From Diplonema papillatum (lineage: Eukaryota; Euglenozoa; Diplonemea; Diplonemida; Diplonemidae), in contig JAPJBO010001031.1 in NCBI GenBank assembly GCA_030068145.1, forward strand, positions 1 through 64,000: a stretch of DNA of 64,000 nucleotides, written 5' to 3'. The translations under genes were made by a program, and so were the position numbers. The notes under the pieces were generated by a model that saw nothing but the letters and a program-made list of their open reading frames with translations, did no database searches and was not told the origin of the DNA. This document shows, piece by piece, positions 1,832 through 41,171 of this stretch (its first letter is position 1; each line of letters starts with the position of its first letter).

Positions 1832-2902
1832 CAAAGATGGTATAATACAAGGGTCAAATAATTAAATACAAATTCAATAATAAAATACAATAAAATACAA
1901 TAAAATACAATTAAATACAATTAAATACAGAATAAAATACAGACCCTGTAGGCTACAGTGCAGCTGCCTTGTGGTTGATGTTTTTGACATGTCTTTGTGT
2001 GTGTGACTCTAAATGATCCCTGATTCTCGACTACATCTACGACTTTTTCCTTGGCTTCAGCCTGCTTTTCCTCGCGCTTCTTAGTTTCCTCGGCAGCTTT
2101 GTTTTTCCGGTCGATATCGGCAACTAACTCGTCAAGACCTGCCCATATTTGTGGTGGCGTGGACTCTCGCCAAGAAGGCGCTTTTCACCCCATGAAGCTG
2201 AACACCCTCTCTGCGTCACGGAATTCTGAATTCGTGCACCCAGTGTCACACTTCGGAGTCCACGTTCACTTATGTGGGGAGTTGTAGAGTACGGGAGGAA
2301 CCGGAAATCTCCGGAAAGATGGTACCCGCATTCCAACTCGTCTCGGGAAAGGTCAGTCGACGACCTTATGCAGGTGGGTGGAGGCCCACCCCAGAAGGTG
2401 GACTTGCGTTATCTCTCTGTCCCAGTCGCCATAGCAACGTTATCCTCGCCCAAGCATCATCCTGCAACCCTGCTTTCAGGATGGCCATCGTGCCTCTCAT
2501 TTTGGTTATCAACCTTACTCCTCGCTCGAATTGCCGTCTTCGACCTTCACTGCCCCTGGTCCTGGTGGTTAGGACTACTTTCGTGACAACCTCTTCGTGC
2601 CACCTCTCTTCGTCACTGGTACCTTATCTTGCACCTCTGCCCGCCGCGGAGTGCACGTCTCTGTCTTCGATGATGGCGAGTCCTTACGCCGCAAAGGAAA
2701 TACCCTCGAATTTCTCCGAAATTCCCCGATATTTTCGTCTGGACGAGGTGGATACAGGCAAAATAAAGACATGTCAACTACAGGCAAATGGGATTCCAAA
2801 TACAGACTTGTATTAAATACAAATTCTCCAGAATAAAATACAATAAAATACAATAAAATACAACGAATAAAATACAAGTGTATTTTATTATTGCCATCCT
2901 TG
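1832..2902. mobile_element. Non-autonomous hAT-like DNA transposon (about 1.07 kb)
   Basis: The insert is flanked by CACTACCC at 1824-1831 and 2903-2910. Removing it and one repeat restores the exact R-family sequence seen in R3. The ends are imperfect inverted repeats, CAAAGATGG on the left and the complement of CAAGGATGG on the right. An 8-bp target duplication with ends starting CA is typical of the hAT superfamily. Both subterminal regions carry direct repeats of ATAAAATACA (about 1866-1945 and 2815-2880). No transposase is encoded. The base next to the duplication is ambiguous, so a 9-bp duplication cannot be ruled out. Confidence 0.75.
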
Positions 2903-2910
2903 CACTACCC
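2903..2910. repeat. Target-site duplication, right copy (CACTACCC)
   Basis: Partner of 1824-1831; the R4 fragment resumes immediately afterwards. Confidence 0.8.
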
Positions 2911-2944
2911 CCTGCAACAGGGTGGACCGCTTCGTCCGGTCGCG

Positions 2945-3232
2945 TTTTTTCGGGTTTTTTTTTTTTTTTTTTTTTAGTTCGGGCCACCAGGGCACCTTAC
3001 TCCACTCCTCTGAGGTCCCCTGATGGGGATGGTTGGGAGACCATACAATCAAGTATGGAAGCCATCCTTTACTGCGGAGCAATTTCCGCTAGCAGTACAA
3101 GTACTGTGTGAACTAGAGCTTTCATCTGGGAGTTCATCCCCAAACGCCTGGAGAAGTTGGCCAGCCAGGGAATCGAACCAGCGACCCTCAGGTTATCAAT
3201 CTGGCGCCCTGACCGCTATACCAGGTGTGCCC
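2945..3232 (-). mobile_element. SINE1: tRNA-derived SINE
   Basis: On the minus strand this starts with a tRNA-like head, GGGCACACCTGGTATAGCGG, and has a perfect Pol III B box. A body of about 180 bp follows, ending in an A-run (plus-strand T-runs at 2945-2950 and 2955-2975, split by CGGG). SINE2 at 50139-50394 is a diverged copy with the same head and body. The anticodon-loop position reads GAT here and GTT in SINE2. Its 5' end abuts the 5' end of LINE fragment M, head to head. I could not match its 3' end to a LINE in the window. Confidence 0.85.
3169..3223 (-). promoter_or_regulatory. Internal Pol III promoter of SINE1 (A and B boxes)
   Basis: On the minus strand the A box TGGTATAGCGGT is at 3212-3223 and the B box GGTTCGATTCC, a perfect consensus match, is at 3169-3179. 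The spacing of about 33 bp is normal for a tRNA promoter. Confidence 0.85.
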
Positions 3233-4636
3233 TCGCGGCGGTCAAAAAAAAACAAGCACGACACGATCGCCGTCAAATACGGACTCCTGAAGAGGCGCGC
3301 GCGGACGGAAGACGTCGACAGGCAGACCCGCAAGGCGAACCCGTTCGCGCCGTGGGAGCCACGGTGCCCCAAAGTGCACATCTCGGCAACACTGAGGAAG
3401 AAGTCGGAGGACGTGGAGGCGAACAGAAGGGTAGTGGAACGTGTGTTAGCCGCCCTGCCGACGCCGCTCTTGGTAACCTGGACCGATGGCTCTGTTGTTG
3501 AGGAAACCACAATGGAACCGGCGCTAACAGTCCTCAACGGCACAACGGAACCGACACCCACGGAGACGAAATGGGGAGGAGCCGGGTTTGCCATCGAATC
3601 CGGAGAGAATTGGTCGATACGGAGAAGCGCGCAAGACGATCTTCCCTGGTGGGCGACCAACAGCGGTCCGGCCGGCAAGTGGGCGACAAGCTACCGGGCG
3701 GAACAGGTGGCGATGCAGAGAGCCCTGCGCGTCCTCGTGGGCAGTCTGAGCAGGAGGAACGACAAAACCCTGTGGATACTGACTGACTCGAGCTCGCTCC
3801 TCCAGGACCTCGACCATGGACCACATCGCCAAGTCGACCCAGCCAACATCGAGATCTGGCAGCTGCTGGGCAAGCTCGCCGATCGTGGGTACACCATCCA
3901 CCTCCAGTTCGTCTACAGCCACTGTGGACTGGCCGGGAACGACGAAGCGGATACCCGGGCGAAGACCGGCGCCAGCTCGCCAGGAGAAAGGGGACCCCGT
4001 CCCCCGCTCACGCGATCGACGGCGGCGGCCAGGCACAAGAGCTATGTGCAGAAGAGGTGGTCGGCAGGCGTGCTGAAGGCCCACCCGGAGTTGGGCTCCC
4101 ACTACGACGGGAAACTCGCACACGCGCAGATCGTCAACGGGAGGAAACTCCCGAAAATCGATCACCTCACGCGACGGGCCGAGCGTGAGATCAGGCAGAT
4201 CCGCACGGGCCAGCACCGCCTCCTTCGCAATTGGTGCCGGGAGGACTACGACGCGTTAGCGAAGTCCGAACGGAGCTCGAATCGTCCCTGCCCGCATTGC
4301 GGAGAGGTAGCCGAGTGCCCGGTCTCGCACCTTTTCTTGGACTGCGGCCATGAGGGGACGCAAGGGAAGCGTGACCTGATGTGGGAAGTGGCCTCCCCGT
4401 TACGGCGGGAGGGTGGCCAACCGGTGTGGATACCGAGACACGAACAGCTGTGGAGATTGCTGTTCGAACACCCGGAGACGGCACTCGAGTACCTGCAAGG
4501 GACCGGACTGCTGGAGGAGTACCGGATACTCGTGCCGACCACACCCGACGAACAGCCCACCGAATCCCGCCCATCCGCCACGAGAACCGCGACACAAACA
4601 CGCGAACTCGAGGCCAGCGGATTTGCACGCCCGTAA
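3233..4636 (+). pseudogene. M: 3' half of a LINE ORF2 (RNase H, CCHC)
   Basis: This is an uninterrupted frame of about 460 codons from roughly 3250 to a stop at 4636, with endonuclease and RT missing. RNase H residues are in order: WTDGS near 3480, SYRAEQ near 3690, LTDSSS near 3780 and SHCGLAGNDEAD near 3918. A CX2C...HX4C knuckle (CPHCG...HLFLDC) lies near 4288-4345. A conserved tail motif, ETALEYLQGTGLL, follows. The frame opens further upstream only by reading SINE1 antisense. The fragment is an E/L-lineage LINE, 5'-truncated, joined head to head to SINE1. Confidence 0.85.
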
Positions 4637-5375
4637 TCGGACTCGGCCCCGACTCAACCACCGCATACCGGGCCCCGCCTCGTCCGTCGGAGGGACAACC
4701 CCCCCGGCCCACGAGAGCGCGTCCGAGGAACAGTCACGACCGTGACCGCGAGACGGCCGACCCCCGACGTCGAAGCAACCTCGAAGAGCGACGAAACGAA
4801 GGCAAAGCGAAGCGAAGTACAAATGGAGAACGAGAGTAGGAAGCTAGAGAATTCTACTCCGGCACCTTGCACTTGACACTTTGAACCAAGAAAGTAGAAA
4901 GAGGAGCAGAGGCATTACTAGCGAAAAGCGAATTGATTTGCCCAGTACGTATAGGTGCCTCAAGCATCGCAAGCAAAACTGAGGTCCGATGCTCACCCGA
5001 GAAGGTACGGCTCGGAGGAGACAGCATTGAAACATGAAAAGCTGCGCGCCCTGACCACGCCCTCGGACTTGGAGTAGGACCTCAAACTTTTACGTGAACC
5101 GAAAACCGTTAACAGAAAGAGAACCAATTTACGTAAACCGAAAACCATTACCAGAAAGCGAACCCAATAACGAGAACCAAGAACCGAAGCCAGAAGGAAA
5201 AACAATTAACGTGAAACAAAAAACCGATAAACGAACAAGTAGTAGTCATCACTCCATCACAAACAACACAACGGAGTAAATGGTGGCACAAAGAACCACT
5301 GTACGCTTGCCCGTTAGAGACCGTCTTGCCTCGTCTTGCCCGGGCTTCGTTCCGCCCTACAGAACAGAACAGAAT
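4637..5375 (+). other. 3'UTR of M and unassigned sequence, no gene
   Basis: This is non-coding sequence after the M stop, probably its 3'UTR. It holds two 39-bp direct repeats (5092-5130 and 5131-5169; core CCGAAAACC). No poly(A) run marks the end of M, so the M/N boundary near 5280-5375 is uncertain. Confidence 0.55.
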
Positions 5376-6154
5376 TTTGCGCGGCAACGAGGTAACTGAC
5401 AGCCTCGCGAAACGTGCGGCCTTCCACCATTTCAGAGAGGTGACGAGAGGCAACGCACCCGGGGAGCCCCCGTTAGCGGCAGAAGATGCAGTCACACGGT
5501 ATAAAGCGTTTACGACCCTCGCCTCAACCGAGCCGATGGCACGCGCGGCGTTCATCAGGGCTGAGCGACACCGCGTCTCAATGCCATACGCCAGGATTGT
5601 AGACGGGCGAAGCGTCAAGCGCCATTGCCACCTTACGGTGCGGGCGGAGCGGGAGATCCGGCAGATCCGGACCGGACACCACCCGCTCGTAATGACGATG
5701 TACGCTGCAGATTATGCGGACCTGGATATGCTTGAGAGGAGGCGGGCCTATCGGAGCTGCGCGTTCTGCAAAAGCTACCACCCGAACGTCCTGGAGCATA
5801 TGTTCATCGGATGTGTCGAAGCCTCGAGCCAAGCTCACCGCATGAGTTTGTGGACTAAAGTGGCCAGAGGAAAAGGGCCCGAACCGGCGGCACGCCTCCC
5901 GTCGGGCGCAACAAACGCCGACAAGCTATGGCACGTCCTGTTCAAGCACCCTGAAATGGCGCTTGAGTACTTGCAGGACACGGGGCTGATACCCCGTTTC
6001 GCCGTGGTAAAGTCCGGCCACGGGGAATCGCTGCCCACAAGCGACTGCATATGCGACGGTAGGTCAGTCTGGAGCTCTCAGACAGTCACCTCGCAGATAA
6101 GTGCACTCGTGAGTGTCGCAGCGAGTAGCCAGCCAGAGGGAGGCGAAGTACTTT
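5376..6154 (+). pseudogene. N: 3' end of another LINE ORF2, broken by a foldback-like element
   Basis: The frame starts in the last RNase H motif (GNEVTDSLAKRAA). It continues through the conserved RAEREIRQIRTGHH segment, a CCHC knuckle (CAFCK...HMFIGC) and MALEYLQDTGL. It is related to but distinct from M and L. The frame then runs into the tandem repeats that begin at 6155, giving a meaningless repetitive peptide. Everything upstream of the last RNase H motif is missing. Confidence 0.8.
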
Positions 6155-6398
6155 CTATTACTATCCCCAAACTTTTATACCATTCTATTACTATCGCAAA
6201 CTTTTATACCATTCTATTACTATCCCCAAACTTTTATACTATTCTATTACTATCCCCAAACTTTTATACCATTCTATTACTATCCCCAAACTTTTATACC
6301 ATTCTATTACTATCCCCAAGTTTTTATACCATTCTATTACTATCCCCAAACTTTTGTACCATTCTATTTCTATCCCCCCCCCAAATTTTTGTACCATT
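6155..6398. repeat. Left 30-bp tandem array (8 units)
   Basis: Units start CTATTACTATCCCC. One unit is 29 bp, and the innermost is expanded by a C-run. The array is inverted relative to 7523-7642. Confidence 0.9.
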
Positions 6399-7522
6399 TG
6401 GTTGGTGTCCCAGCACTTGGCGTCAGTACCGAAAACGTTGAAGCGTTGTCCCACCGCACGAAACAAAGAGGCCCCTTTTTGCTTTGCCGCAAGTTTCTAA
6501 GCAAAGACGAAATCTCAAACTGCCAGCACGGAGTCTAAGTGGTTTCGGTCTCTCGTTTGCGGAGTCGACGACCCCGACATTCTGTTTTGCCCCGACTCCA
6601 CCCTGTGGAGGGAGCTTCCGTGGGAATCCCACTCCAATCCTGTAGTTCCGCAGTTTGACGCTAATCAGGCTCAGATACGAGTCAGTACGCGTGCACGCAG
6701 CACGGTGCTGGATTCTGGAGTCTACGCTATATCGCCGAACAAAAGCCACTACGACTGTGCCCGGCCCAGGGTTCCACCGAAGATTTGGTCGACCGTTCAG
6801 CCACTCCGACGACTCAGACTGGTCGCCGGCCGCTGTGAAATCCACAAATAACGCTAGAAATCATCGGTCAGTTTCTTTGGCCCACCGCAGTCGCGCTCTG
6901 CTGCACAACCCTGCCGCCCGGGCCTGCGAGTCAGCACAAACCCTTCCATGTGGGTTACCGGCTTTGGTAATTCCATTTGAGAGTTCTCGCAGAACAGGTG
7001 TCATCAGGAATGCCAGGATGTCAACTGAGTCGGCAACATCAACTCGCAGAGCTTGGCTACGTTTCGTTTACGGGCAACACGTAGTACATGCTGCGGGAAT
7101 GGTTCCCAGGCTGTCAATGGGACCCAGCCCTGGAAAGCCCGCGGCTCTCGGGGCTGGGGATGGAAAGTGGAAAAACAGTAGAAGTGTCGGGCACCCTGGA
7201 CTTGGTGACTGTTCCTAACACTGTACTAACGTAATTCAGTGACCGACTCACTGGGTGACACCAAAATGGGTTCAAAGTTTGGGAATGGGGTTCAGCTTTG
7301 GGACCGTAATGGGTTCAAGTTTTGACCATACTACAAGCCGGTCTCCTTCATGTTTGGATACCGCGTAATGGTCCACACAATGTGACACATTTACATCATG
7401 AGGCAACTTCACTTCCAAGTCGAATAGAGGCAGACTCGCACAAGGCTTTTGTGACAAGCATGTACTTGTTTTTGTACCGAGGGCTGCCAGCAATGGGTGA
7501 ATTCAGTCTCCAGAGTTTCAAT

Positions 7523-7642
7523 AGTAATAGAATGGTATAAAAGTTTGGGGGTAGTAATAGAATGGTATAAAAGTTTGGGGGTAGTAATAGAATGGAATAA
7601 AAGTTTGGGGGTAGTAATAGAATGGTATAAAAGTTTGGGGGT
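7523..7642. repeat. Right 30-bp tandem array (4 units)
   Basis: Units AGTAATAGAATGGTATAAAA followed by GTTTGGGGGT, in exact 30-bp period. This is the reverse complement of the 6155 array. Confidence 0.9.
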
Positions 7643-7646
7643 AGTA

Positions 7647-8167
7647 TGGGAGGTCACATTTTTACCTTACCGGGGAAAATCCCCGGTGGTGTCAGCCAAA
7701 AGGTCGAAGGTCCCCCCCCCTAGCGTAGCGCCTGAACACGAAACTAAGATTTTCCCCCCCGGTGGTTTTTTTGTTTGAAAACCCACAAAATGTGCATCCA
7801 ACTGTGGCTGACCTAAGTTCTAGTCCCTCCACATGTCCTCCCAGCCTGCGTTCCATCAACTTTTCGTTGGTGGTCCTTCTACATAACACTAAGAGATTGA
7901 ATTGATGATTGTCGCTGCCACTACAATGTTCGAATCTGATTCGACTGACGATCTTTACCGACAGACAATTTAGCAGCCTAAGGGTAAGCTATTCTAACAA
8001 CGACTATCTGGCGATGGTGGCATGAGTCACGGTCGGAGTTCTACTCCATGCACAGGAAGAGTCCGTCCTTCTTCTTTCCTAGTTTGACAAAAGGAACAAA
8101 AGAACGACTTGCCCGTACAAGTAAATGCAGTTCTCGCCCCCTGCATGTCTTCCGTAGTTGCTTACTC
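7647..8167. other. Unassigned sequence, no gene seen
   Basis: There is no long ORF or recognisable element here. A short perfect hairpin (arms CCGGGGA/TCCCCGG) lies near 7670, and C-rich runs at 7711-7762. It may be the rest of N's 3' region or a poorly conserved element. It ends in an A-run at 8168-8178. Confidence 0.4.
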
Positions 8168-8174
8168 AAAAAAA

Positions 8175-8210
<36 letters not shown>
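8168..8210. repeat. A-run/T-run junction (A11, T32)
   Basis: A plus-strand A-run directly abuts a T-run. The T-run is the tail of a minus-strand insert on the right. This is one of seven such junctions in the window. Confidence 0.9.
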
Positions 8211-8211
<1 letters not shown>

Positions 8212-8354
8212 GTAACTGAGGGGAAAAATGCCTTACGCACTGACCACAAGCCGGACCAAACTTGCGAGTGTGGGACTGCCGCTTTTTCTGGCGGGATTTA
8301 CCCACTAAAAAACCTTAACTCAGGATTAGTCGTTTAAGGAGCGGGAATCACCCG
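8211..8354 (-). mobile_element. Short minus-strand retroposed fragment of unknown type
   Basis: These 144 bp lie between two T-runs, as expected for a minus-strand copy with its poly(A) tail at 8179-8210. It has no ORF and no Pol III boxes that I recognise. It is probably a severely 5'-truncated LINE or a SINE fragment. Confidence 0.5.
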
Positions 8355-8568
8355 TTTTTTTTTTTTTTTTTTGGAGCGCGGGACACTGTACTAGCCTTGT
8401 TGGTACAGCGGGGCTGCCGGTATCCGGTTGCTTCCGGAGCGGTAGTCCAAAGAAATGCTTCTTCAGCACACAGTGAACGCCACCTCACTGCGACCTGGGC
8501 TGGCCTGCATCTGAGTGCAGGTCCGACCAGGTAAAAAAACCCGCGATGCAGTGACTCTTCCCCCTGCA

Positions 8569-11500
8569 TCAGGGTGGATTCGCTTCGTCCGGTCGCGCCC
8601 CACCAGATGCAATTACGATCCTCGCCACCCCTTGGGCTATAGAAAAGCTCAAGCGGTGGAAGAGGTCCTGGCAGGCGGCCGAAGCGGTCCGGTCTTCACG
8701 GAGGGCGTTCGCGCGGGCGATGTGCCGCAGCTCCGTGATTGCTCCTGGGCACCAGGCCCCGAACGTGTCTACAACTAGCGGCACCGCTCGCCACTCCCGC
8801 GGGTCCGGCTCATTTGCGATGATCCTGTTGTAGACACGCTCCTTGACGGCAACAGCATACGCGGCTGCTGCGCCCCCTGGCTCCGCTGCGGCCCTGGTCG
8901 CGTAGTGGGGCTGCGAGAGCTGTAGGGGGTATGTGACTGCGACGTCAAGTAGGACGGTGGTGCCGTCCCGGACGTAGCTGATGTCCGGGCGCTTGCGCCG
9001 CGTGTTCGCGAACACGGCTCGCTCGATCGAGGGGCCCAGCAGCCCTCGACGTGCGAAGTCGGCGACAATGTCCCGAAGCGCGTTGTGCAGGCGCGTCCGG
9101 CGGCCGCTGCCGAAACACGTTTGGGCGTGCGAGCCGATGACGTCGGTCGCCCCGTGCCCGCAGAGGCGGCACTCCCCTGGCGCGGCCGCAATTGGCAGCC
9201 CCAGCCGAAGGCGTACTGCCACCGCCAGTTCGGCCGAGGACAACCACATCCCGGTATCCGCTTCCGGGTTGCCGTACAGCCACGCCGAGGCGTGCTTGCC
9301 GGAGCTGCTTTGGATCCTCGCCCGGATCCGGTCTTGCGCCTGGGACAGGGCCGCTCCCTGCAGTTGGCTCGAGCGGGCGAGCTCCTCCGTTAGCAGGTCG
9401 AGGAGGTTCTTCCGCTTCTCGGTGGCCAAGGCGGACGACCACACCTTCTGTCCTCGCCCCTCGTACTGGGTCCGCGCCTGCATGACGTCCTGGATCTTCT
9501 CCAGGACGGACTCATACGTTGCAAGGCGCGGGTCCGCGAGGGACGCTTGGACGGTGTCGTCCTGCTGCCACGTGAGGCGTGGCCCCAGGGCCTCGGACAC
9601 GAGGGCGGGGAGATGCGTCCCCCCATCTAGTGCCGCCGCGATGTGCGCAATCCCTGTCACGTCTGCGCAGCTGTGGAGGCCGAGGCCACCCATCCTGACC
9701 GGGAGGGACGCTTGTGTCCACGCCGCCTCGTCGGTCTGTATCCCGGTGATAGTCGCGAGACAGGACTGGGTGGCCCGGTCGACTCCCGCGAAGTCGAAGA
9801 CGGACCCCGTCGCGCGCATGAGATGTACTACGCCGACGAAGCCCGCACAGAACTTCGTTAGCGTGAGCGCCACGTGCGCGTCGGGCAGGGACGCTATCAT
9901 CCTCAGCTTCCTCTCCGCACCCTGTGCCGCCCGCTCGACGAACGCGTGGATCTTCTCTGGCGAGCCACACGGGACTCCCAGATGCTCGATCTCGTCGAGC
10001 GAGCACGTCTCGATGCCTTGCAGGCCGTCGGGTATCTCCGCCCCCGCCGCGATCGCCAGTCTGCACTTGCCCCGGTTCAGGCGCAGTCCGACGGCCGCTG
10101 CCCGCCGCTCGTATCCCTGCAGCCAGCGCGCGATCGCGTCGAGGTCTCCGCCTGACACTCCATCGTCAAGGTAGAATGTCAGGAGATCGAGGTCGGCTTG
10201 GCTCAACGCTGAATGGCCGAGCGCTGCCTCCGGCCCCCCGACTTCCGGCTGCCCTTGTCCCTCCGGGCCCTGCGGCTCGGGCTCGGCTCCTGGGGCCCCC
10301 AACTCGACCGCCGGCGGGATTTCCGGGGCCGGCAGGACCTGGGCTGGTCCGGGGTCGACGTGCGCTATCCCCTGCGGCTCTGCCGCCCCCGGGGGGGGGC
10401 CGGCCTGGGCCGGGACTGCCGGTGGCCCTTGAACTGGTGCCAGCTCGCGCGCTGGCTGTCCCTGGGGCGCCGCTTCGTCCGCCGCGACCGGCGCGCCTGC
10501 TGGGCCTGCAGGTCCGACTGGTGGCGGCGGCACGACGCCCTCCCCTGGCCCGGGTGGGTCCGCCGGGCCGGCCGGCGGCGCCGCTGCTTCGGCCGGTGGC
10601 GGCGGCGGCGAGACGACGTCGTGCATCGCCAGGCTGAAGAGCAGGGGCCCCAACGGGTCCCCCTGCTGCACCCCGCACTCAGATGTGAGCGTCTTGTCCC
10701 CCACCTGCAGGATGGAGTGCTTGCCGTACGCCGCCTGGGTGTAGGCCAGGACCTGGGGGGCATGCCGGCTGGCGCTGCGGATGATCGCCTCCCTCTGCAG
10801 GGAGTTAAATGCGTTCTCCAGGTCCACCTGGAGGACGCCCTTACTTGCCCCGCCCTCCCTGCGGTACAAGGCCGCCACCCTCCGGACGGCCAGGACCCCG
10901 GCGTCCGCGCCGGCCTTCACGCCTACTCCGACCTGCCCGCTTCGCAGGAGGACGTTCTGGCCGAGTTCCTTGACCGCCCGGTCGGACGCGAGGACCTTGC
11001 CGGCTACCCTCCTCAGAATCTCGCCGCAGGCGATGGGCCTGATCCCGCCCGTCCTTTTGACCAGTGGGACCAGCTTGGCCCCGTAGAGGTATGGCCTGGC
11101 GGCCGTCGGTACCCTCCCGGACGAGACCGCCCAAACGGCATCCGCCACGGCCTCCTTGAAGGAGCCGGAGCTGTCCCACAGGTCTAGCAGGTGCTGAGCT
11201 GACAGCCCGGAGGGGCCGGCCGCCGTGCCCTTCGGCATCTTCTTGAGCAGCCTCCGCACGGCGCTCGGCGCGGGCCGCGCCACGTTGGGGATCTGCATCG
11301 CTGGGTCGCCCTGCCACTCCTCGGCGGCCGGGTGTAGGTCTCTGAGCTGTGCCAGGGTGGCTTCGTCCGACGGGGCCGTCTGTGCTGCCGACAGCGCAGA
11401 CACGGCTCGCGAGTAGCACCTGTCGCGCGCCCTCTTGATGACCTGGCGCACGGTGGGACCGTCCAGGTCGTCAACTGACCTGACCGCCGTCTGGAGCTCG

Positions 11501-14074: not shown

Positions 14075-16649
14075 GGGTTAACCATCGACCAAGGATTCAC
14101 CTTCCTCCCTCACCTCCAACGGGTTGTCGATGGATTCTCGCTGAGGATGAACCTCCTTCGACACCTGGCCGGCAAGGATTACGGCTTCAACGGCACGGTT
14201 CTCCGCACCCTGTATCTCTCCTATGTGCTACCCACGTACACGTACGCACTCGGAATCTACGGGCCATTCATCCTCCCCGCTAATGGGCCCCTCACAACGC
14301 TTGAACGCATGCATCGTCGTGCCCTTACCCTCATCCTGGGCTGTCGCAAAGGCGTCGCTGAATTCGCCGGGCAACAGGAGACTGGTATCCTCCCGATCCG
14401 CGCGCTCGCAAAGTGCAGGATCGCGGCCCTCCGGGAGAAGGTTGAATTCAACAAGGTTCTGTGGGCGCACGAGCTTTCCCTGGACACGCTCCTGAAGTCG
14501 ACGTCCGACAACATCCGCAAGAAAGCGGGCACGGACGGTTGCCGTCGGGAGCTCCGCGACTTCCATTTGTTCGCCCCCTGGGTTCCCAGGCCCGACGTCG
14601 AGATCTACACGTCGCTGAAAGTCCGCAAGCACGCCAGCAATGCGGAGAAAAAACAAGCGGTGCTGAAACGCCTGGCGGAACTACCCCACCCGGACTGCGT
14701 CGCCTGGCCAGACGGCTCCGTTGTACACGGTGACCCCCCTCTGCCCTCGATCTGCGACGCCAACGCCAGCGCTGCCCTACGCCCGTGGCTGAGGAGCACG
14801 GCGGACCGTACGACCTGGGGGGCTGCCGGCGTGTTTATTGATCTTGGGCCGTCGGTCACCATCAAGCCGGACCACGGCCTGCCCGTCAAGCCCACCGGCG
14901 ACCGACGCACGTTCGATGCCTCTTTGCCCGCCGGCAAGCACCCGCACAGCTACCGCGCCGAGGAGTTCGCGCTCTACAGCTGCCTGAAGTTCCTCCTGCG
15001 CCTCCTCCCGCCAACCCCGACGCCGCTCAACATCCTCGTCCTCAGTGACTCTCAGTCACTCCTGATGACGCTGAGCCACGGCCCCCATTGCCAGACGCAG
15101 CCGTACCCAATCGCGATCTGGCTGCACCTGGCCGAGTTGGAGTCGCTGGGTTACACCGTGACGCTGCAGTTCGTCTTCGGCCACTGCGGCCTCGAAGGCA
15201 ATGAGAGGGCGGACAAGACCGCAAAACGTGGTGCACTCGCGTTCATGCGGGCGGCCACCGACGCCGCGGCCAAGAATCAACCCCCTCCGCTCTCGGCACG
15301 CCTCTGCGCCACGGCCGCTAACGGCCGCTATCGTTCCGTCCTCTGGCTGGAGAGCAGTGAAGCTGGAGCACGAGACGCCTTGGACAGGGCCACCCTCCTC
15401 AGGAACCCGTCGTCGTTCGCCAGGTTGGTCTTTGGCCGCCGCATCCCCCGCCCCAAGCACTTGGCACCACGGGCGGAAAGAGAGGTGCGGCAGCTCCGCA
15501 CTGGCCACCACCACCTGGTGATGACCATGTACGCCACCGAATGGCGCGACCTCTCGAGGGCGGATCGCAGACAGGCGTTTCTCCCGTGCCCTATTTGCGG
15601 CACCCGGTCGTTGGCCCCGCTGCTCCACCTCTTCGTCGGGTGTGACGCCCCTGCAGCTGTGCAATCCCGGCTGACGATGGACGCCGATCTCGACGCGAAG
15701 AGCCGCCTCCGCTCGAAGCCTCCGCCCGCCGATGCCATGGAGCGCCTCTGGGCAATCCTCTTCGTCTTCCCGGAACTCGCCCTGGCCTACCTGCAGAGGT
15801 GCGGCACTCTGCCGAGCTACGCCATCCTCGCCGGTCAGGCGTCCGGCGAGCCCGTGGGTGGCGGCGCCAATCGCTCGATCACGCCTGACGCCGCCTCCTC
15901 GCGCTCCGCCGACTCGGAAGACGCGATCTCGCGCTGAGGGCGCTCGCCACCTGCTTGCGCGCTGCTGGCTGAACGGCGAGCTCGGGGCTGTTGGCAACAG
16001 TGTTGCCCATTTGAACATGCAATGTAAATAGCCTCTATTCGAGCCAACCCGGCTTCTCCTGCAACAATTCTGAAACTGTATTGTATTTGGGACTAGATAA
16101 TGGCGCTGAGCAAGCTTTATTTTTCCCTGGCGAAAAGCATAGCCGGGGCAGAGTCAGCGGGCGCCGGCCTACGGACCGTGCCCAGTTACGGGCCAGTACA
16201 CAGCCATAGTCAGTCCCCAACGTCCCGCCGGTGCCTCGATACCCGGCCGTCAAGGCCCTACGGGGAGAGGCACCGCAATCAAACAAGCAACCGTGTGCTC
16301 CGCCACACCACACCATCCTTTCATTCCACCATGCTTCCCACATTCCAACACTCTCCCCCCCTCCGAGTTCCAGTGGCAGAGAAAGAAAGAAAGAAGCCAG
16401 AGGTCTCCCGGGTCTTCCACCTGGCCTCACTCAACCGCCACCTGGCTGGTTTGTGTGAAAGGCTCAGATACTGGACACCCACGCACTGATAACCCCCCTG
16501 TTCCATAGCCCATCTCTCTTGCATGTGTCTTGTGTCTCTCTGGCATGCCTTCCGGCCCGAAGAGGCCCGTAAAGCCTGCCCGAAAACTGGAACGCGGCTC
16601 TCCGGAGCCGCCAAAAGAATGTGGTGCCTCTTGCAAAAAAAAAAAAAAA
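14075..16649 (+). mobile_element. L copy 1: RNase H-only LINE 3' half
   Basis: The element starts directly after K's microsatellite tail, encodes RNase H and CCHC, and ends with GTGGTGCCTCTTGC and an A-run at 16635-16649. Its 5' edge is within about 10 nt of the homologous 5' edge of the separate L' copies, just past the RT domain. Two 3' hairpins precede the tail: AGGC/GCCT with a 7-nt loop at 16563-16577, and CGGCTC/GAGCCG with a TCCG tetraloop at 16595-16610. Confidence 0.85.
14147..15937 (+). CDS. L ORF: RNase H and CCHC, no endonuclease or RT
   Basis: This is an intact 596-codon ORF with a real ATG (MNLLRHLAGKDYG). It corresponds to the post-RT third of LINE ORF2. The region after the RT comes first (TYTYALGIYGPFIL, LILGCRKG). 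RNase H follows, with WPDGS near 14704, SYRAEEF near 14950, LSDSQSL near 15042 and FGHCGLEGNERAD near 15178-15215. The knuckle CPICG...HLFVGC lies at 15589-15645, and the LALAYLQRCGTLP motif comes near the end. The frame is undamaged despite lacking RT, so it is either very young or a non-autonomous element that keeps its own ORF. The second copy at 41244-43034 encodes the same protein. Confidence 0.85.
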   Translation: MNLLRHLAGKDYGFNGTVLRTLYLSYVLPTYTYALGIYGPFILPANGPLTTLERMHRRALTLILGCRKGVAEFAGQQETGILPIRALAKCRIAALREKVEFNKVLWAHELSLDTLLKSTSDNIRKKAGTDGCRRELRDFHLFAPWVPRPDVEIYTSLKVRKHASNAEKKQAVLKRLAELPHPDCVAWPDGSVVHGDPPLPSICDANASAALRPWLRSTADRTTWGAAGVFIDLGPSVTIKPDHGLPVKPTGDRRTFDASLPAGKHPHSYRAEEFALYSCLKFLLRLLPPTPTPLNILVLSDSQSLLMTLSHGPHCQTQPYPIAIWLHLAELESLGYTVTLQFVFGHCGLEGNERADKTAKRGALAFMRAATDAAAKNQPPPLSARLCATAANGRYRSVLWLESSEAGARDALDRATLLRNPSSFARLVFGRRIPRPKHLAPRAEREVRQLRTGHHHLVMTMYATEWRDLSRADRRQAFLPCPICGTRSLAPLLHLFVGCDAPAAVQSRLTMDADLDAKSRLRSKPPPADAMERLWAILFVFPELALAYLQRCGTLPSYAILAGQASGEPVGGGANRSITPDAASSRSADSEDAISR

Positions 16650-16656
16650 TTTTTTT
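16635..16656. repeat. A-run/T-run junction (A15, T7)
   Basis: The L copy 1 tail abuts a T-run that begins the next block. Confidence 0.9.
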
Positions 16657-16864
16657 CGAGACATTGCAATGTGTTCCAAAAATGTAAGCCTGAGCATTGA
16701 GCGAACTAACACCAAACTGAAGATTCATGTCACTGTCACAGTTTACATGTCCGTGCTTCACATGGAGATCCCTAACTCAAGACATACCAGGTGAAAAGGA
16801 AGAAGAACAACCTGAAGAGAGGCCTGGAACTCGGCCTGCTCAAAAAAAAAAAAAAAAAAAAAAA
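16657..16864. other. Orphan 185-bp segment ending in a 23-nt A-run
   Basis: The segment at 16657-16841 lies between T7 and A23. It has no ORF and no recognised family. The A-run at 16842-16864 suggests a plus-strand retroposed fragment. Confidence 0.45.
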
Positions 16865-16947
16865 GCACAAATGTACACAAAAAAGGAAAGAGAACAAGGC
16901 ACACCAGAGTGTGGTTTTAGGGGAGAACCCCCGAAGGGCTCGCGTCA

Positions 16948-17850
16948 CCCGTATGAAATCGCTCTGCGGGGGCGCCGGAAAGGAGCATACGGAAGAGGTG
17001 CTCTCGTATGAAATAGCTTTGCGGGGCCGGGAAGGTTGTTCAGAGACAAAAGTCTCGTATTGCGACGGAGGACGGAGTCGCGACTCCGGCGTGAAAATAT
17101 GAAGCGCCTGGTTGGAGTACAGATTTGCATAGCTCTATGGAGCCGGGTTAGTGAGTCGAACGAAATCCGTGCGGTCGTATGATAGCAGCTCTGCGATAAA
17201 GACCCCGCGTACTCGTATGAAACAGCTCTGCGGGACCCGGGGGCCGGATATACGTACAATAACATGCGTGGACTCGTACGAAACAACTCTGCGAGAAAAA
17301 GCCGGATAATCCCGTATGAAACAGCTCTGCGGGGCCGGGCGCCCGATAAATGTAAAATAACATGCGGCCTCGTGCGAAACAACTCTGCGAGACAGGCCCG
17401 AGGAACCCGTATGAAACAGCTCTGCGGGGGCCCGGAGGCGAGTGAATCGAGAGCCGCGCGCGCTGGTAAGATGACATCGGAAACTTCGTATGAAACAGCT
17501 CTGCGAAAAGGAAAACTCACACACTCGTACGAAACAGCTCTGCGAGAAAACAGGAAAACCACGGATTCGTAGGAGACAGCTTGCGAGGAAGAGAAACCTG
17601 CGTTGCTGGATAAATCGGCCTATGTGAGGAAGGTGGGCATACGCACTCGTATGGAACAGCCCTGCGAGGAGAACCACTGCGCGCTCGCATGAAAAAACTC
17701 TGCGAGGAGAATAAGCCCACGTACTCGTATGAGACCGCTCAACGAGAAGTGTGATAGAAACTCTGCGAAGGGGAAGAACCCCTGCAACTCGTATGAAACA
17801 GCTCTGCGAGGAGGACAGACCCGCGAAACCGTAAGATACCGCTCTGCGGG
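16948..17850 (+). repeat. Array of 16 covarying 22-23-nt stem-loop motifs
   Basis: Motif: left arm YTCG or CCCG, 15-nt loop near TATGAAACAGCTCTG, complementary right arm. Starts: 16948, 17003, 17173, 17212, 17273, 17311, 17369, 17406, 17485, 17524, 17566, 17646, 17684, 17724, 17788, 17828. Spacing is irregular (about 35 to 170 bp). Arms change together: CCCG with CGGG, CTCG with CGAG, TTCG with CGAA. Where they differ, most remain G-U pairs on the plus strand. The array fills the leader upstream of gag. Irregular spacing shifts the frame between copies, so it is unlikely to encode a repeat protein. Confidence 0.85.
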
Positions 17851-18065
17851 GCCCGGGGGACATTTTGCAGCTAGCGCGCAAAAAGCGTTGAAGAGGAGTG
17901 AAGACGTCGCGGACTTGTATTAGTCGTAATTGTGTTGCACTAGTGTGCGTCGTCTTGTATTAGTCATTTAGCGCGCCCCGCGGGGTCGGATCCGCAGAAA
18001 ATTATCGAGCGGGGGAAGTGCTAAGGAAAGCAAAGAGAGAACACACTTCACATTCTTCAATTCGA

Positions 18066-19058
18066 ATGGCGGCACAAGCGTTCGACCCGAGCCACGTCGA
18101 CTGGAACAGCATTCCGGTACCAGAGCTGAATGAAGGACCTCCGGCTGCGCCGCTTAGCTCATGCGTTTTCCCGTCGTGCATGACTGTCCATGCGACCAAC
18201 ACCCTCCTATGCCACACATGCGGAGGCAACACGACGAGGACATGCATTAGAAGCAAGCTGGGATCGCTCCATGCTCCCACGTTCCTGGAGAACGCGGGGT
18301 GTCCAGGTTGGGTATGCCCTTACTGCGCATGGGAGATCGAAAACCGGGTCTCTAGGGAACCGACTCCAGAAGACGTGCGCGAATGGTTAGACGACGAGGA
18401 CGAAGGCGACGATGACGAGGACGGCGACGACGGTGAGCAGCCCGGTGACTCACGCGGGACGGACGTTGTACGGGCATTGCATTCCCTCAGGGAGGCGGTC
18501 GAAGCGCTGACAAAGCGGGTGGACGGTTTGGAAAAAAGGCAGACGACAGCCGAGGAGCCCCTGCCGACGGGTTTCTCGGGCTACTGTGTCGCAACATGGG
18601 GCGACGCCTTGAACTCGAGGGGAGGTCGAAACCAGATCCGCACCGCGCTTGGCCGCGTGTTTAGGGAAGCGAGCCTCCCTCCGAACGTCGAGGATGCGCC
18701 GGACTGGTGTATAGCCCTCAGTGCGGCGTTCGAGACCCTTGATCACACATTCGCTTTAATCACGGATAATAAACCTGGCGTCGAACACCTGCGAGCCCTT
18801 CACCACGCGGTCACCAACCTCGCAGCGAACTCCCTGTTTAGGACGTCGCAGGCTAGGGCCCGATTCCAAACAGCCGCGAGGGCAATCCAACCGGATAAGT
18901 TTTCCCTCGTAGTGTTCAATAAGTACTACACGGACGCCCGTTTGCTCGAGCACGCACAGAAGGGAGGAAAAGGGGGCCGCAACCCCAGATACGAGCCCTA
19001 CAATCCCAGGACGTCGGGAAAGGGGAGCGGGGCCGGAAGGAAGGCAGGAGCGAAGTGA
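18066..19058 (+). CDS. Gag-like ORF of the YR element
   Basis: This is a 330-codon ORF from the ATG at 18066 (MAAQAFDPSHVDW). The upstream GTG at 18018 is in frame but has no support. A Cys/His cluster lies near 18160-18330 (CVFPSC, CHTCG, CPYC), followed by a run of Asp/Glu (about 18390-18440) and a possible coiled coil (LHSLREAVEALTKRVDGLEK). The C-terminus is basic and Gly-rich. Position and composition suit a nucleic-acid-binding gag protein, but I do not recognise the family. The next ORF starts 87 nt downstream. Confidence 0.65.
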   Translation: MAAQAFDPSHVDWNSIPVPELNEGPPAAPLSSCVFPSCMTVHATNTLLCHTCGGNTTRTCIRSKLGSLHAPTFLENAGCPGWVCPYCAWEIENRVSREPTPEDVREWLDDEDEGDDDEDGDDGEQPGDSRGTDVVRALHSLREAVEALTKRVDGLEKRQTTAEEPLPTGFSGYCVATWGDALNSRGGRNQIRTALGRVFREASLPPNVEDAPDWCIALSAAFETLDHTFALITDNKPGVEHLRALHHAVTNLAANSLFRTSQARARFQTAARAIQPDKFSLVVFNKYYTDARLLEHAQKGGKGGRNPRYEPYNPRTSGKGSGAGRKAGAK

Positions 19059-19145
19059 CTGCAAGCATCCCCTCGAGCGTTCCCGTTTTACAGAACACAA
19101 AAGACGAGAGCGAAAAAGACGCGCCGGGGAAGGCCTCCGAAGGAA

Positions 19146-20039
19146 ATGCCTTTTTTGGAGAGAAAGAAGCGCCAGGCTATCGTAAAAGAGGCTCAAAGGG
19201 CTCTAAAACACGCGCTGTCGGGGAGTTACTGGAGTACCCTCCAACGGACTCACGAGAGGTTCCAGGCATTCAAGCTGGAATGGCAACGTGCGGAGGGCCC
19301 AGTGAGCGACGAGGAGGCGATCGTTCTGTGGATCTCCTTCCTCAGAAAAGAAGGATTGTCAACGCCGTCGGCGTTACAATACCTAAACAACGTCGTGATG
19401 GCCCTTCGGCGTTTCGAAAACGTGACCCCCCACCTACAAATAATGGGGGACTTCCGACGGTCGTTGAAGCGCGAGGGGGCTCTGAAGTCGGCGAAACAGG
19501 CGCTGCCGGTAACAAAGCAGCAAGCGTGGGAGATGATCCACGCAGCGGAGGACGCATGGGTGAGTATCGCGTTGGCGTTCATGTGGTGCGGGGCGGCAAG
19601 AGCGAGCGACGTAATACGGTTGAAGACGAAAAACGTGCGTATTTTGGAGGGGGGGAGACCGGTCTCAGTGCTATGGGAGGTCACAAAGTCCGACCCCTAC
19701 GGGCTAGGCAGGGTGACAGGAGTCCATTTGGACCCGGAGACCAAATCGAGGCTAAAAGCCGTGTTAACGCGGAGAGAACGGCAGGGACAAGAAAATTTGT
19801 TCCCGGCACACATCTCCTATCGGAAACTGGCCTCCTCCATAAAGCTGAGACACCCGGGCCTCACCCCTCACTCTTTCAGAAGGGGGGCAGTGTACGAGTT
19901 GACGGACCAAGGTCGGACCCTGGGAGAAATTGCTTTGCTGACGCGGCACGCGTCGGCAGAAGCGGTACTTCGATACGCGCCGATGATGGATGTGGCCAGG
20001 GTGACGGAATCGGGGGTCCTGTTACGTCAGCTGCTGTGA
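19146..20039 (+). CDS. Tyrosine recombinase of the YR element
   Basis: This ORF has 297 codons and an ATG start. The catalytic residues of the tyrosine recombinase family are present in order: Arg in CGAARASDVIRL near 19590, H-x-x-R in TPHSFRRGA near 19870, the second His in LLTRHAS near 19940, and the Tyr in VLRYAP near 19975. The N-terminal half resembles a SAM-like core-binding domain (LWISFLRKEGLSTPSALQYL). It would integrate the circular cDNA by site-specific recombination instead of an integrase. It looks intact. The frame differs from both neighbours. Confidence 0.9.
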   Translation: MPFLERKKRQAIVKEAQRALKHALSGSYWSTLQRTHERFQAFKLEWQRAEGPVSDEEAIVLWISFLRKEGLSTPSALQYLNNVVMALRRFENVTPHLQIMGDFRRSLKREGALKSAKQALPVTKQQAWEMIHAAEDAWVSIALAFMWCGAARASDVIRLKTKNVRILEGGRPVSVLWEVTKSDPYGLGRVTGVHLDPETKSRLKAVLTRRERQGQENLFPAHISYRKLASSIKLRHPGLTPHSFRRGAVYELTDQGRTLGEIALLTRHASAEAVLRYAPMMDVARVTESGVLLRQLL

Positions 20040-20074
20040 AGGTTCTGGCGCGCCGCACATTCCCCAGTAAGCGC

Positions 20075-21440
20075 ATGACAACATGTTTGGACGTCAACCG
20101 ATATGGAAACGACGGAGTCGAGATGCAACCGGGGCTGGATGGGTTGTACGACGCCGAACTGCGCGTCCCCATGTGGAAGCAGACCGTGAGCAGTCCGCAA
20201 AGAACGAGCGTTTCAACAGGAGACGCTCTTGCATCGATTACGCCGTCCCGTATCAAATTGTCAGAGCTGAAAAAACTGGACGTGAACGGCGAGTTGGTGG
20301 GCGTGATGGAATTCATCACCGACCCAAATTTCTTCCGAGATGCTGTAAGAGCTGTGGGAGGTTTCGGAACGCGAGACAGCCCAATATCGCGTCATATGGA
20401 CCGTCACGTTGAAGATCTCTTGAAATGTGGGGTCATCGAAGCCTACCCGGAAGGAGAAAAAGCTCGCGTGGTCATGCCAGCGCACACAGTTCCAAAGCGC
20501 TCGGGGGGGCTACGTTTTGTATGCGACGGGAGGCGACTAAACGCCATGATGGCAAGACCGCCGGATATGCGGCTGCCGCTCATCACAAGCGTAGTCCAGA
20601 GAGTGGCGAACGAGAACTGGGCGGTGCTGGCGGATGCTACTTCTTTTTTCTATCAGTTCCCGGTGCATCCAGAAATACGAGACTACTTTGGAATAAATGT
20701 CTCCGGGGCGCGAGGATCTTTCCGTAAAATGCGGCTAAAAGTGCTGTGCATGGGATGGTCACATGCCCCGGCGATCGCACACCGCAGTGCACGAGTGCTG
20801 CTACCCCCAGAAGAAGGGGAAACATGGGTCGACAACTTCGTGGTTGTGGGAGATACTCAGGAACATGTAGTCAAGAAATATGAGATTTTCCGAAAGAGAT
20901 GCGATTCTGCGAATGTAGTTCTAAATAGAGGTGAATCGTATGGCGATCCGCTCCAAGTTTTCTCGTTGTTCGGAGTACAGTTTGACTTGAACTGCCACCG
21001 ATACCGCATGGACCCAAAATGGGTGGAAAAGTTACAAAAAAGAGAGGATCTCGCGCGTACTTTAAACGGTTCCGCCACACCCAGGGACGTATATGGATGT
21101 CTGGGAAACGTGGTGTGGCAGTCGTACATCATGAATTGCCCGATGTGTTTCCTGCCGGCCACGCTCTCTTTTATCCGTAGGTTGGCATCTGCTACTCTGA
21201 AAGAAGTGGGAAGCTGGGACATCCCAGGCCCTGTACCTCCTTCTGTGTCGAGTGAGCTAAAGGAAAGGTTGCACCTGATCGAGGAAAACGAGTGGGAATC
21301 CTCAGTTCTACGCACAACTAGAACAGTGTGGAGCGACGCGTCGTCTACGGCGTGGGGAGCTATTGCAGAAGCGGAGCCAAAAGAAGTAGCCGCTTGCGAT
21401 GCTTTTGAGGGCGCAGATGCCGAAAGACACATATATTTGA
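20075..21440 (+). pseudogene. RT-RNase H of the YR element, cut inside RNase H
   Basis: The frame is taken from ATG 20075, just past the recombinase stop; it is open further upstream without support. The RT shows VPKRSGGLRFVCDGRRLN, the first catalytic Asp in VLADATSFFYQF (near 20630), LCMGWSHAPAIAHRSA, and WVDNFVVVG at about 20825-20851. The usual second Asp of the x-D-D box is Asn here. RNase H begins with TVWSDASSTAWGA near 21325. At 21441 L' copy A begins in the same frame, producing a fused reading frame to 23320. The rest of the RNase H domain is not found. Confidence 0.8.
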
Positions 21441-39296: not shown

Positions 39297-41171
39297 TTCG
39301 GGCCGGGTCGGAAGACTGAGGCGGCAACACACCCGGCACATCCGTGCAAAGCAACCTCACCCGACCGCCGGTGCAGGCGCAACAGGGCTGCTGAGTGCGA
39401 AGCGCGAATCAGTACGCTGACGGCGCAGTCCAACACCAGACGCACACACCCGGCACTACACAGTCCCCACGGCCACCGACCAACCGCCGCAAGGCGGCAG
39501 CAGTAAACCGGCAGCACGACAACGGAGACGCAGGCGCCGACGAACAGCCGAAGCCCGCACGCCGACACGGACGCAGCCGGTCACCGGACCGAACAGCACC
39601 TGAGAACAATAAGAAAAGAGAGGGGAAAGAAAAGAAGGCAAACAAAAGTACCACCGCAGCAGCGCAACAGCGCCGCGACCGAACACGACTACCAACGAAG
39701 GGTAGACTCGGTGCACCGACAGCACACCCACCTGACCATAGGAAGGTCCAAAAGGGTGGAGTGAGCACTGGAGCGGTCACTGAGGCAGATAGGTAGCTGC
39801 AACACAAGAACAGTGCATTAGCAACCAAAACAAAAAAAGACAACCCTCCGGGCCGAGAGCGGACAATGAGCACGGGATAGAACAGCGTCAGAAACACCAG
39901 CCCGGTGTTTCCGACTGCCGGAGACGACCTGGCCAACGGACCGCACCACGCAGAGTGAGCACAGGAGCGGTCACTGAGGCAGACAGGTAGCTGCAACACA
40001 AGAACAGTGCATTAGCAACCAAAACAAAAAAAAGACAACCCTCCGGGCCGAGAGCGGACAATGAGCACGGGATAGAACAGCGTCGGAAACACCAGCCCGG
40101 TGTTTCTGACGCTGCCGGAAGCGACCAGGCCAACGGACCGCACCACGCAACAGCGCCGCAAAGCGAAACAGAGACAAGCAGCAAGCTCAAAGGCCCCGGA
40201 AGGAAGAACAAAGTAGAGGCAGGCGAAGCGCCCAACGGACCGCACCACGCAACAGCGCCGCAAAGCGAAACAGAGACAAGCAGCAACCAAACCAGCCCCC
40301 CCCGACCGAAGCGGAGGACCGACTCAACAGGCAAACCCTGGCACGCCAGGGTTTACCAACAGAAGTCAGAACACCGCCCGGAAGGGAGAGCCGCACAACA
40401 AGTCCAAAAAATACCCCCCACCAACTGCCGAAAAAGAAATACCTTTCCCTTACCTTGTCCCACAAAACCAGAACCAATAACAACGCCCCCCCCCCAAGCA
40501 CGCAAGAGAAGCCGAGTCCTGCCAAAACAACAGACAACGTATTAACCCCCCGTTTCAGTGCTACACGCACCACGCTCAACAACAACCCACAAGAGCGAAG
40601 GCAGCAGGACGGGCAGCGGCAGCGAAACAGCGCCACGCGCCCGACAACAACAGAAGCGAAAGCAAACCCCCCCCGACCGACACGGAAGACCGACTCAACA
40701 GGCAAACCTGGCACGCCAGGGTTACCAAAAGACGTCAGAACACCGCACCGGAAAGGGAGGGCGAGCGAAGGACGAAGCCACAACAAAACCAAGGAAAAAC
40801 AACCATCACTGCACACAACACGCAGAGCCAAGCAGCATATCAGCAGCGAACCAAAGCAAACCCTTGACAAATTACTATCACAGGCAACTGACAGCGCGAC
40901 AATCGCCGGAAACACACCGACCGCGACTGGTAAAGCCTGGCACGCCAGGACATCATTACCAGAAGAGCGGCAAGAAACAAGGGGAGGGCGGGCAAGAAAC
41001 AATCCCACTGAACCCCCCCACAACCATACCAAGAACGAACGAAAGGAAACAGAAAACAAACAAACGCCCCAAGGATGAAGAGAAGGCACAAGGAACCTTA
41101 GCACCGTATCCCCAAGCCTAACCCGGGTGCGGTTTCCAAATTTTTGAAATTGAAATTGAAATTGAATTTTT
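39297..41171 (+). mobile_element. K 3'UTR, second copy
   Basis: It follows K's stop codon. From 39335 it matches 12238-14074 with only a few substitutions. It carries the same tandem units, hairpins and GAAATT-type tail, and joins L copy 2 at 41172. It shows what the first copy is: the 3' region of K. Confidence 0.8.

Follow-up and report, generated by a model that had tools for sequence, protein, structure and literature searches.

Sixteen covarying hairpins in the leader of a YR retrotransposon of Diplonema papillatum, a possible RNA docking array

VIPER and TATE, the tyrosine recombinase (YR) retrotransposons of kinetoplastids, contain YR and reverse transcriptase (RT) frames and a gag-like ORF, with repeat A1 at the 5′ side and B1, A2 and B2 at the 3′ side; a CX2CX4HX4C box is present in the Gag of some VIPER copies and absent from others (PMC6681497, accessible part). 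Ngaro elements of Cafeteria show split direct repeats in the order A1-[ORFs]-B1A2B2, and solo AB copies also occur (PMC8547959, accessible part). The terms tandem repeat, hairpin and stem-loop are absent from the former text, and "tandem repeat" from the latter. A search of titles and abstracts, with subscription papers outside its scope, found no leader hairpin array in YR retrotransposons, in agreement with the initial annotation of the locus described here, which knew of no YR element with such an array. Nor was any description of how these elements select or package their RNA found in the accessible literature.

We analysed a stretch of 64,000 nucleotides of Diplonema papillatum (the window; contig JAPJBO010001031.1, hereafter C1031) and searched the corresponding genome assembly of 271 Mb. 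The window contains a split-direct-repeat YR retrotransposon of the Ngaro/PAT/VIPER type, with the order gag-YR-RT and the following features:

16651-21440, plus strand: YR retrotransposon, window copy; left end at a T-run, right part lost at a LINE-like fragment
16657-16863, plus strand: A1 left repeat with a poly-A tract at its end; genome matches to 16654-16840; A1 and A2 both found in the C107 derivative
16946-17852, plus strand: array of 16 bulged hairpins (covariance model and folding)
18066-19058, plus strand: gag-like ORF of 330 aa; by eye, a Cys/His cluster and a basic tail rich in Gly
19146-20039, plus strand: tyrosine recombinase ORF, 297 aa; PF00589
20084-21440, plus strand: part of the reverse transcriptase; PF00078; interrupted by the LINE-like fragment

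The window copy is 99.2% identical to a copy on C204 over 4801 columns, in an alignment ending at about 21440, and the latter is 99.4% identical to a copy on C561 over 5226 columns; the gag and YR proteins are identical in all three. The array lies between left end and gag in each of them, confirming its earlier placement in the leader of a YR element, and the order in C561 is left repeat, array, gag, YR and RT frame. The YR protein matches PF00589 (E 1.1e-5; 25.8 bits, just below the curated 27.1) and has the R...HxxR...Y residues (by eye). The RT of the C561 copy, in a frame open to its stop, matches PF00078 (E 7.6e-7; 29.5 bits against a cut-off of 29.6) and, weakly, the RNase H family RVT_3 (E 0.052), whereas the RNase_H match in the fused window frame falls within the LINE-like part; the start of RT is uncertain, the frame being already open inside the YR gene. 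A Pfam search with the gag-like ORF returned no family at E 0.001, a structure predicted from the single sequence was unusable (mean pLDDT 37.6), and the CX2CX4HX4C box was not seen by eye in the 330-aa protein. The RT active site reads WVDN (window positions 20825-20836, and also in loci L018 and L023), a form shared with a sister family on C387; YxDD is the usual motif at this site. Elsewhere, the window contains tandem repeats at 58532-59442 (312 bp, 2.9 copies) and 39759-40149 (195 bp, 2 copies).

The A1-[internal]-B1A2B2 arrangement is complete in the derivative on C107 (L067), which consists of A1, a piece of the RT region and then B1, A2 and B2, with the B1/A2 junction at TTTTTT; in C204 and C561, B1 is present and A2 truncated. 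Left ends lie mostly at a T-run, with C32 as an exception. Queries with the left and the right end each yielded at least 40 genome matches (the best 40 of 818 and of 374 candidates, respectively), many of them as left-right pairs near one another, and the fully read copy on C2027 consists of A and B without an array. Short A-B copies, each about 260 bp long, are numerous and inserted at T-runs (L069 on C2027, L067 on C107), like the solo AB repeats of Ngaro. Several YR families also start with a T-run (seen in L049, L050, L055-L057, L059 and L062-L066), mostly followed by a short palindrome, such as ACATTGCAATGT in the window element, which is probably a recombinase site. VIPER has the gene order gag, YR, RT, which the window family matches. 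The family shares with VIPER and TATE, as far as their description is accessible, the YR and RT frames, the gag-like ORF and the placing of A1 at the 5′ side and of B1, A2 and B2 at the 3′ side (PMC6681497). In the accessible description of Ngaro, the split direct repeats and solo AB copies are likewise alike, but ORF1 is gag, ORF2 RT/RH and ORF3 YR, whereas here the YR gene precedes RT (PMC8547959).

For the analysis of the array, 39 distinct 27-mers were collected with up to six mismatches (window and L014 restricted to the array); six of them, due to chance or shifted by indels, were removed by eye (L011:7049, L013:4079, L010:3309, L009:4020, L009:4203 and L015:2975). The remaining 33 copies, from which a covariance model was built, exclude those bearing indels and include C850 copies with A-G and C-A mismatches. 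RNAalifold, with no structure supplied, gave the consensus ..((((((.((......)))))))).., that is, a 27-nt unit in which a single bulged base separates six lower from two upper pairs below a 6-nt loop, reading NNCGUA-[one bulged base]-GA-(6-nt loop, often AACAGC)-UC-UGCGNN in plus RNA. The hairpin of the initial annotation is thus retained, but its 4-bp stem and 15-nt loop are replaced by eight pairs, one bulged base and a 6-nt loop, since the former loop holds a further stem of U.G, A-U, bulge, G-C and A-U.

Within the window, the model matched 16 sites, every one of them on the plus strand and inside 16946-17852, which equals the number of recurring copies counted before; the scores at 17172 and 17564 are weak, with a one-base indel each (E 0.082 and 0.39, respectively, for 163,900 bases). 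Likewise, a 19-nt core with up to three mismatches occurs 13 times in the window, as compared with a shuffle mean of 0.02. A recount agreed with the earlier arm classes (CCCG/CGGG in three copies, CTCG/CGAG in seven, TTCG/CGAA in one), the four copies with a plus-strand G-U pair and the single copy with an outer mismatch (17828). There may be a decayed seventeenth copy near 17745, seen by eye and not reported by the model. A higher-order repeat of 95-98 nt spans 17189-17432, so the copies are not independent. Coding on either strand was rejected, as neighbouring copies lie at distances that are not divisible by three and indels occur in loops. A search of Rfam 15 with 16500-18200 of the window gave no match at gathering score and two sub-threshold ones, neither covering the whole array. 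The individual hairpins are as follows (bits, covariance model; z, single-hairpin fold):

Hairpin 1, 16946-16972, plus strand: arms CC/GG; 38.1 bits; z -1.9
Hairpin 2, 17001-17027, plus strand: arms CT/GG, U.G; 36.0 bits; z -1.3; two upper pairs absent when folded alone
Hairpin 3, 17172-17199, plus strand: arms GT/AT, G.U; 7-nt loop; 16.9 bits; z -0.3
Hairpin 4, 17210-17236, plus strand: arms CT/GG, U.G; 41.6 bits; z -2.3
Hairpin 5, 17271-17297, plus strand: arms CT/AG; 38.7 bits; z -3.0
Hairpin 6, 17309-17335, plus strand: arms CC/GG; 41.2 bits; z -2.0
Hairpin 7, 17367-17393, plus strand: arms CT/AG; inner A-U changed to G.U; 31.9 bits; z -1.5; minus-strand fold slightly better
Hairpin 8, 17404-17430, plus strand: arms CC/GG; 41.2 bits; z -2.1
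Hairpin 9, 17483-17509, plus strand: arms TT/AA; 38 bits; z -2.1
Hairpin 10, 17522-17548, plus strand: arms CT/AG; 41.7 bits; z -2.2
Hairpin 11, 17564-17589, plus strand: arms TT/AG; one-base deletion, bulge absent; 14.5 bits; z -2.7
Hairpin 12, 17644-17670, plus strand: arms CT/AG; upper A-U changed to G-C; 41.6 bits; z -2.6
Hairpin 13, 17682-17708, plus strand: arms CT/AG; inner U.G changed to C-G; 35.2 bits; z -3.5 on plus, -3.4 on minus
Hairpin 14, 17722-17748, plus strand: arms CT/AG; bulge shifted by one, longer upper stem; 31.3 bits; z -4.9 on plus, -2.5 on minus
Hairpin 15, 17786-17812, plus strand: arms CT/AG; 44.3 bits; z -2.4
Hairpin 16, 17826-17852, plus strand: arms AC/GG, outer mismatch; 29.7 bits; z -0.3

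By computation, each unit of the array folds as a covarying hairpin in plus-strand RNA, as the initial annotation had proposed. Pairing holds in 96.2% of 264 cells of the 33-copy alignment, as compared with 25-58% for slid versions of the structure. With these other copies added, the covariation score was 0.206 against a shuffled mean of 0.149, and none of 500 shuffles scored as high; cells with a change on both sides numbered 10 against 3.3 (reached in 0 of 500 shuffles) and pairs with a double change, a weaker measure, 3 against 1.3 (12 of 500), whereas the count of further pair types was not notable (9 against 8.2; 126 of 500), all these shuffle tests being inflated because the copies are related by local duplication. 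As related sequences can beat shuffles, the kind of change weighs more. The outer arms form a stepwise path in which pairing holds at each step (CC/GG, CT/GG, CT/AG, TT/AG, TT/AA). In place of the upper A-U pair, hairpin 12 has G-C and the aligned copy of a relic array on C1367 has G.U.

The pairing also shows a strand preference. Permutation of the 3′ arms among the 16 window copies gave, on average, 10.9 copies in which the plus strand permits both outer pairs, as compared with 15 of 16 in the actual array (P 0.001); the figures were 11 of 16 against 5.7 with Watson-Crick pairs only (P 0.001) and 11 of 16 against 8.1 when read as minus strand (P 0.014). The alignment contains 36 G-U cells, 25 of them at one near-invariant pair, and 2 C-A cells, or 11 against 2 without that pair. 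Folding of the whole array gave z -2.04 for plus RNA, a value that none of 20 shuffles equalled, and z +0.69 for minus RNA, where 15 of 20 shuffles did as well. In a 1-kb context, 10 of the 14 ungapped hairpins reached pair probabilities of roughly 0.5 or higher in the plus strand, and one did so in the minus; the four not forming in the plus fold are at 17005, 17371, 17408 and 17830. Single folds of the 16 hairpins averaged z -2.19 on plus and -0.34 on minus, although the plus value is close to zero for hairpins 3 and 16, 13 and 14 are stable on minus too, and the minus-strand fold is as good as the plus for 7 and 13.

A pattern search of the genome returned 89 matches, as compared with 9 for the reversed control pattern, and arrays or relics were located on ten contigs (C19, C32, C35, C70, C204, C561, C850, C1031, C1367 and C2565). 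The left end of the element lies beside the array on seven of the ten, indicating that the array is not, as a rule, a stand-alone satellite, a possibility that had been raised. No left end was found on the other three contigs, C19, C850 and C1367, although 31 nt of the leader preceding the array are retained on C1367 and a 37-nt post-array match on C19. Gag-like sequence follows the array on four of the ten (C32, C204, C561 and C1031), while on C35, C19 and C2565 similarity ends shortly after it, and C70 is a deletion derivative in which the first hairpins are joined to the right end of the element. The relic on C1367, outside the training of the model, gave four matches, three with E values of at most 0.0012 and one with 0.17. 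On C2565 (L016, reverse orientation, about 2690-9938), an array of 16 copies, preceded by the left end, runs directly into an open frame of 1982 codons, which by eye starts like a secreted C-type-lectin-like protein and contains long TSAPA-type repeats; the right end was not found at this locus. The version on C850 (L015, reverse orientation, about 2970-3290) has units of about 88 nt, lacks detectable element ends and is close to a gene resembling phosphoribosylamine-glycine ligase (by eye).

The model was also run unfiltered on 18 loci outside the array family, comprising sister YR elements (YR identity 34-42%), gag relatives and three derivatives of the window element that lack an array. A single weak match resulted, on the minus strand (E 0.82), so that the array seems to have been acquired by one family. 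From the T-run start to the first gag ATG, a guessed gag start, the distance is 66-218 nt in those 10 of 14 upstream loci of sisters and gag relatives where both points could be read, as compared with about 1.4 kb here. A relative with 74% YR identity on C6 (L047) gave no model match, gag and leader there being mostly lost. Single two-mismatch motif matches occur on C262, C315, C319, C523 and C587, that on C523 scoring 15.8 bits (E 0.009, core only); the viral contigs scanned contained no stretch of the motif and no relative of the YR protein.

Other repeats were encountered in the same searches. An array of about 31-nt units on C1181 (L050, 1-690) has palindromic junctions TATGTC-G-GACATA, some with matched changes, and a loop that looks similar to that of the hairpin, and lies upstream of an ankyrin-repeat-like ORF (by eye); located ahead of a sister YR gene, it was rejected as a homologue, being about 2.5 kb upstream of the T-run start of that sister element and without a model match. 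TGTACGAAACAACCCTGCG, present at nine places, was taken as another repeat, the two fetched instances scoring 7.9 bits. Related 13-base minisatellites (CCCAAACTTGGGT, GAACTTGGACCCA and GGACCCAAATTTT) are found near several YR elements (L048, 497-1438; L061, 457-709, reverse orientation; L065, 1298-1846).

To compare rates of change, we aligned the C561 copy in eight blocks with C32, C19, C1367 (three blocks), C2565 (two) and C850. Substitutions affected 27 of 351 stem, 11 of 136 loop and 146 of 996 spacer positions (stem versus spacer, P 0.0006; loop versus spacer, P 0.046), indicating that stems change about half as fast as spacers between diverged copies. There are exceptions: the stem rate equals the spacer rate in the first C1367 block (0.19 and 0.17), the loop is slightly faster than the spacer in the C32 block (0.13 and 0.10), two indel-bearing hairpins, counted separately, changed at 0.196, and the spacer near 17070-17125 is also strongly conserved in C2565.

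The position and polarity of the array, together with its copy number and reduced rate of change, suggest that it serves for docking on the RNA. It would act in cis as an RNA module in the untranslated leader, the sixteen hairpins offering multivalent docking to an RNA-binding protein, most likely, we infer, the element's own Gag; to this reading we assign a probability of about 0.4. Many Gag molecules could then mark and condense the genomic RNA for packaging and reverse transcription, and we hold more tentatively that Gag or another element protein reads one bulged hairpin repeated sixteen times, marking and condensing the RNA for packaging. Gag is the natural candidate because of its Cys/His cluster and basic Gly-rich tail. 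Related Gags occur without an array, which counts against docking of Gag and indicates that Gags of this kind do not need the array in general. The main rival is control of translation or RNA fate, in which a structured leader with upstream ATGs would restrain or redirect ribosomes, or the hairpins would bind a host export, localisation or silencing factor. The 1413-nt leader has 24 ATGs, 18 within the array and 10 of these at one common place of the hairpin, and the last 272 nt before gag are free of them, with no upstream ORF extending to gag. However, in several copies a substituted bulged base removes the hairpin ATG but the stem is intact, and the ATG-free stretch is not preserved, as the C32 copy has an ATG there (by eye). 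We regard such control as somewhat less likely than docking of Gag.

Less probable still is a passenger origin, in which the array would have expanded in the manner of a minisatellite, with a hairpin in its unit by chance, and would do nothing for the element. The higher-order repeat, the C850 version without recognized element ends and the restriction to one family among 18 comparison loci would fit such an origin, but stems and loop persist despite irregular spacing and dissimilar spacers, stems change at about half the spacer rate, and the arm types trace a path that pairs at each step. The units might instead act as DNA, either as enhancer or promoter modules or as sites bound by the recombinase, since mobile elements often have repeated motifs upstream of their genes and the hairpin arms are complementary as DNA too. 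We regard this as the least credible reading, because the departures from Watson-Crick pairing are nearly all G-U on one strand, a pattern for which a DNA site has no need. The recombinase role considered initially is in particular unlikely because the element ends adjoin short palindromes at T-runs, away from the array, and an array-less A-B derivative keeps both ends.

If the docking array is real, we know of no earlier example in YR retrotransposons of a cis-acting array for RNA assembly; it would belong to one family only, with sisters in the same genome that lack it. Binding and mobility tests could use the repeated 27-nt hairpin as a small, defined target and the array-less sisters as a natural control, and the hairpin offers a compact example of many hairpin copies in one array changing by steps that preserve pairing. 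The tandem 5′-UTR monomers of L1 act as promoters; they are likewise tandem repeats in a retrotransposon leader, whereas the units here are short covarying hairpins. The operator bound by the coat protein of RNA phage MS2 likewise has a single bulged base on a short stem, directly beneath a small loop, but loop size and sequence differ, and here the hairpins form a natural multi-copy array for a partner that we infer. Repetitive structural motifs of coronaviruses and 5′-UTR hairpins of tymoviruses, thought to aid genome packaging (cited in PMC12911879, accessible part), occur in few copies, as compared with sixteen here, and differ in loop and stem, with no sign of a common origin; they are, likewise, small, repeated and in or near the 5′ leader.
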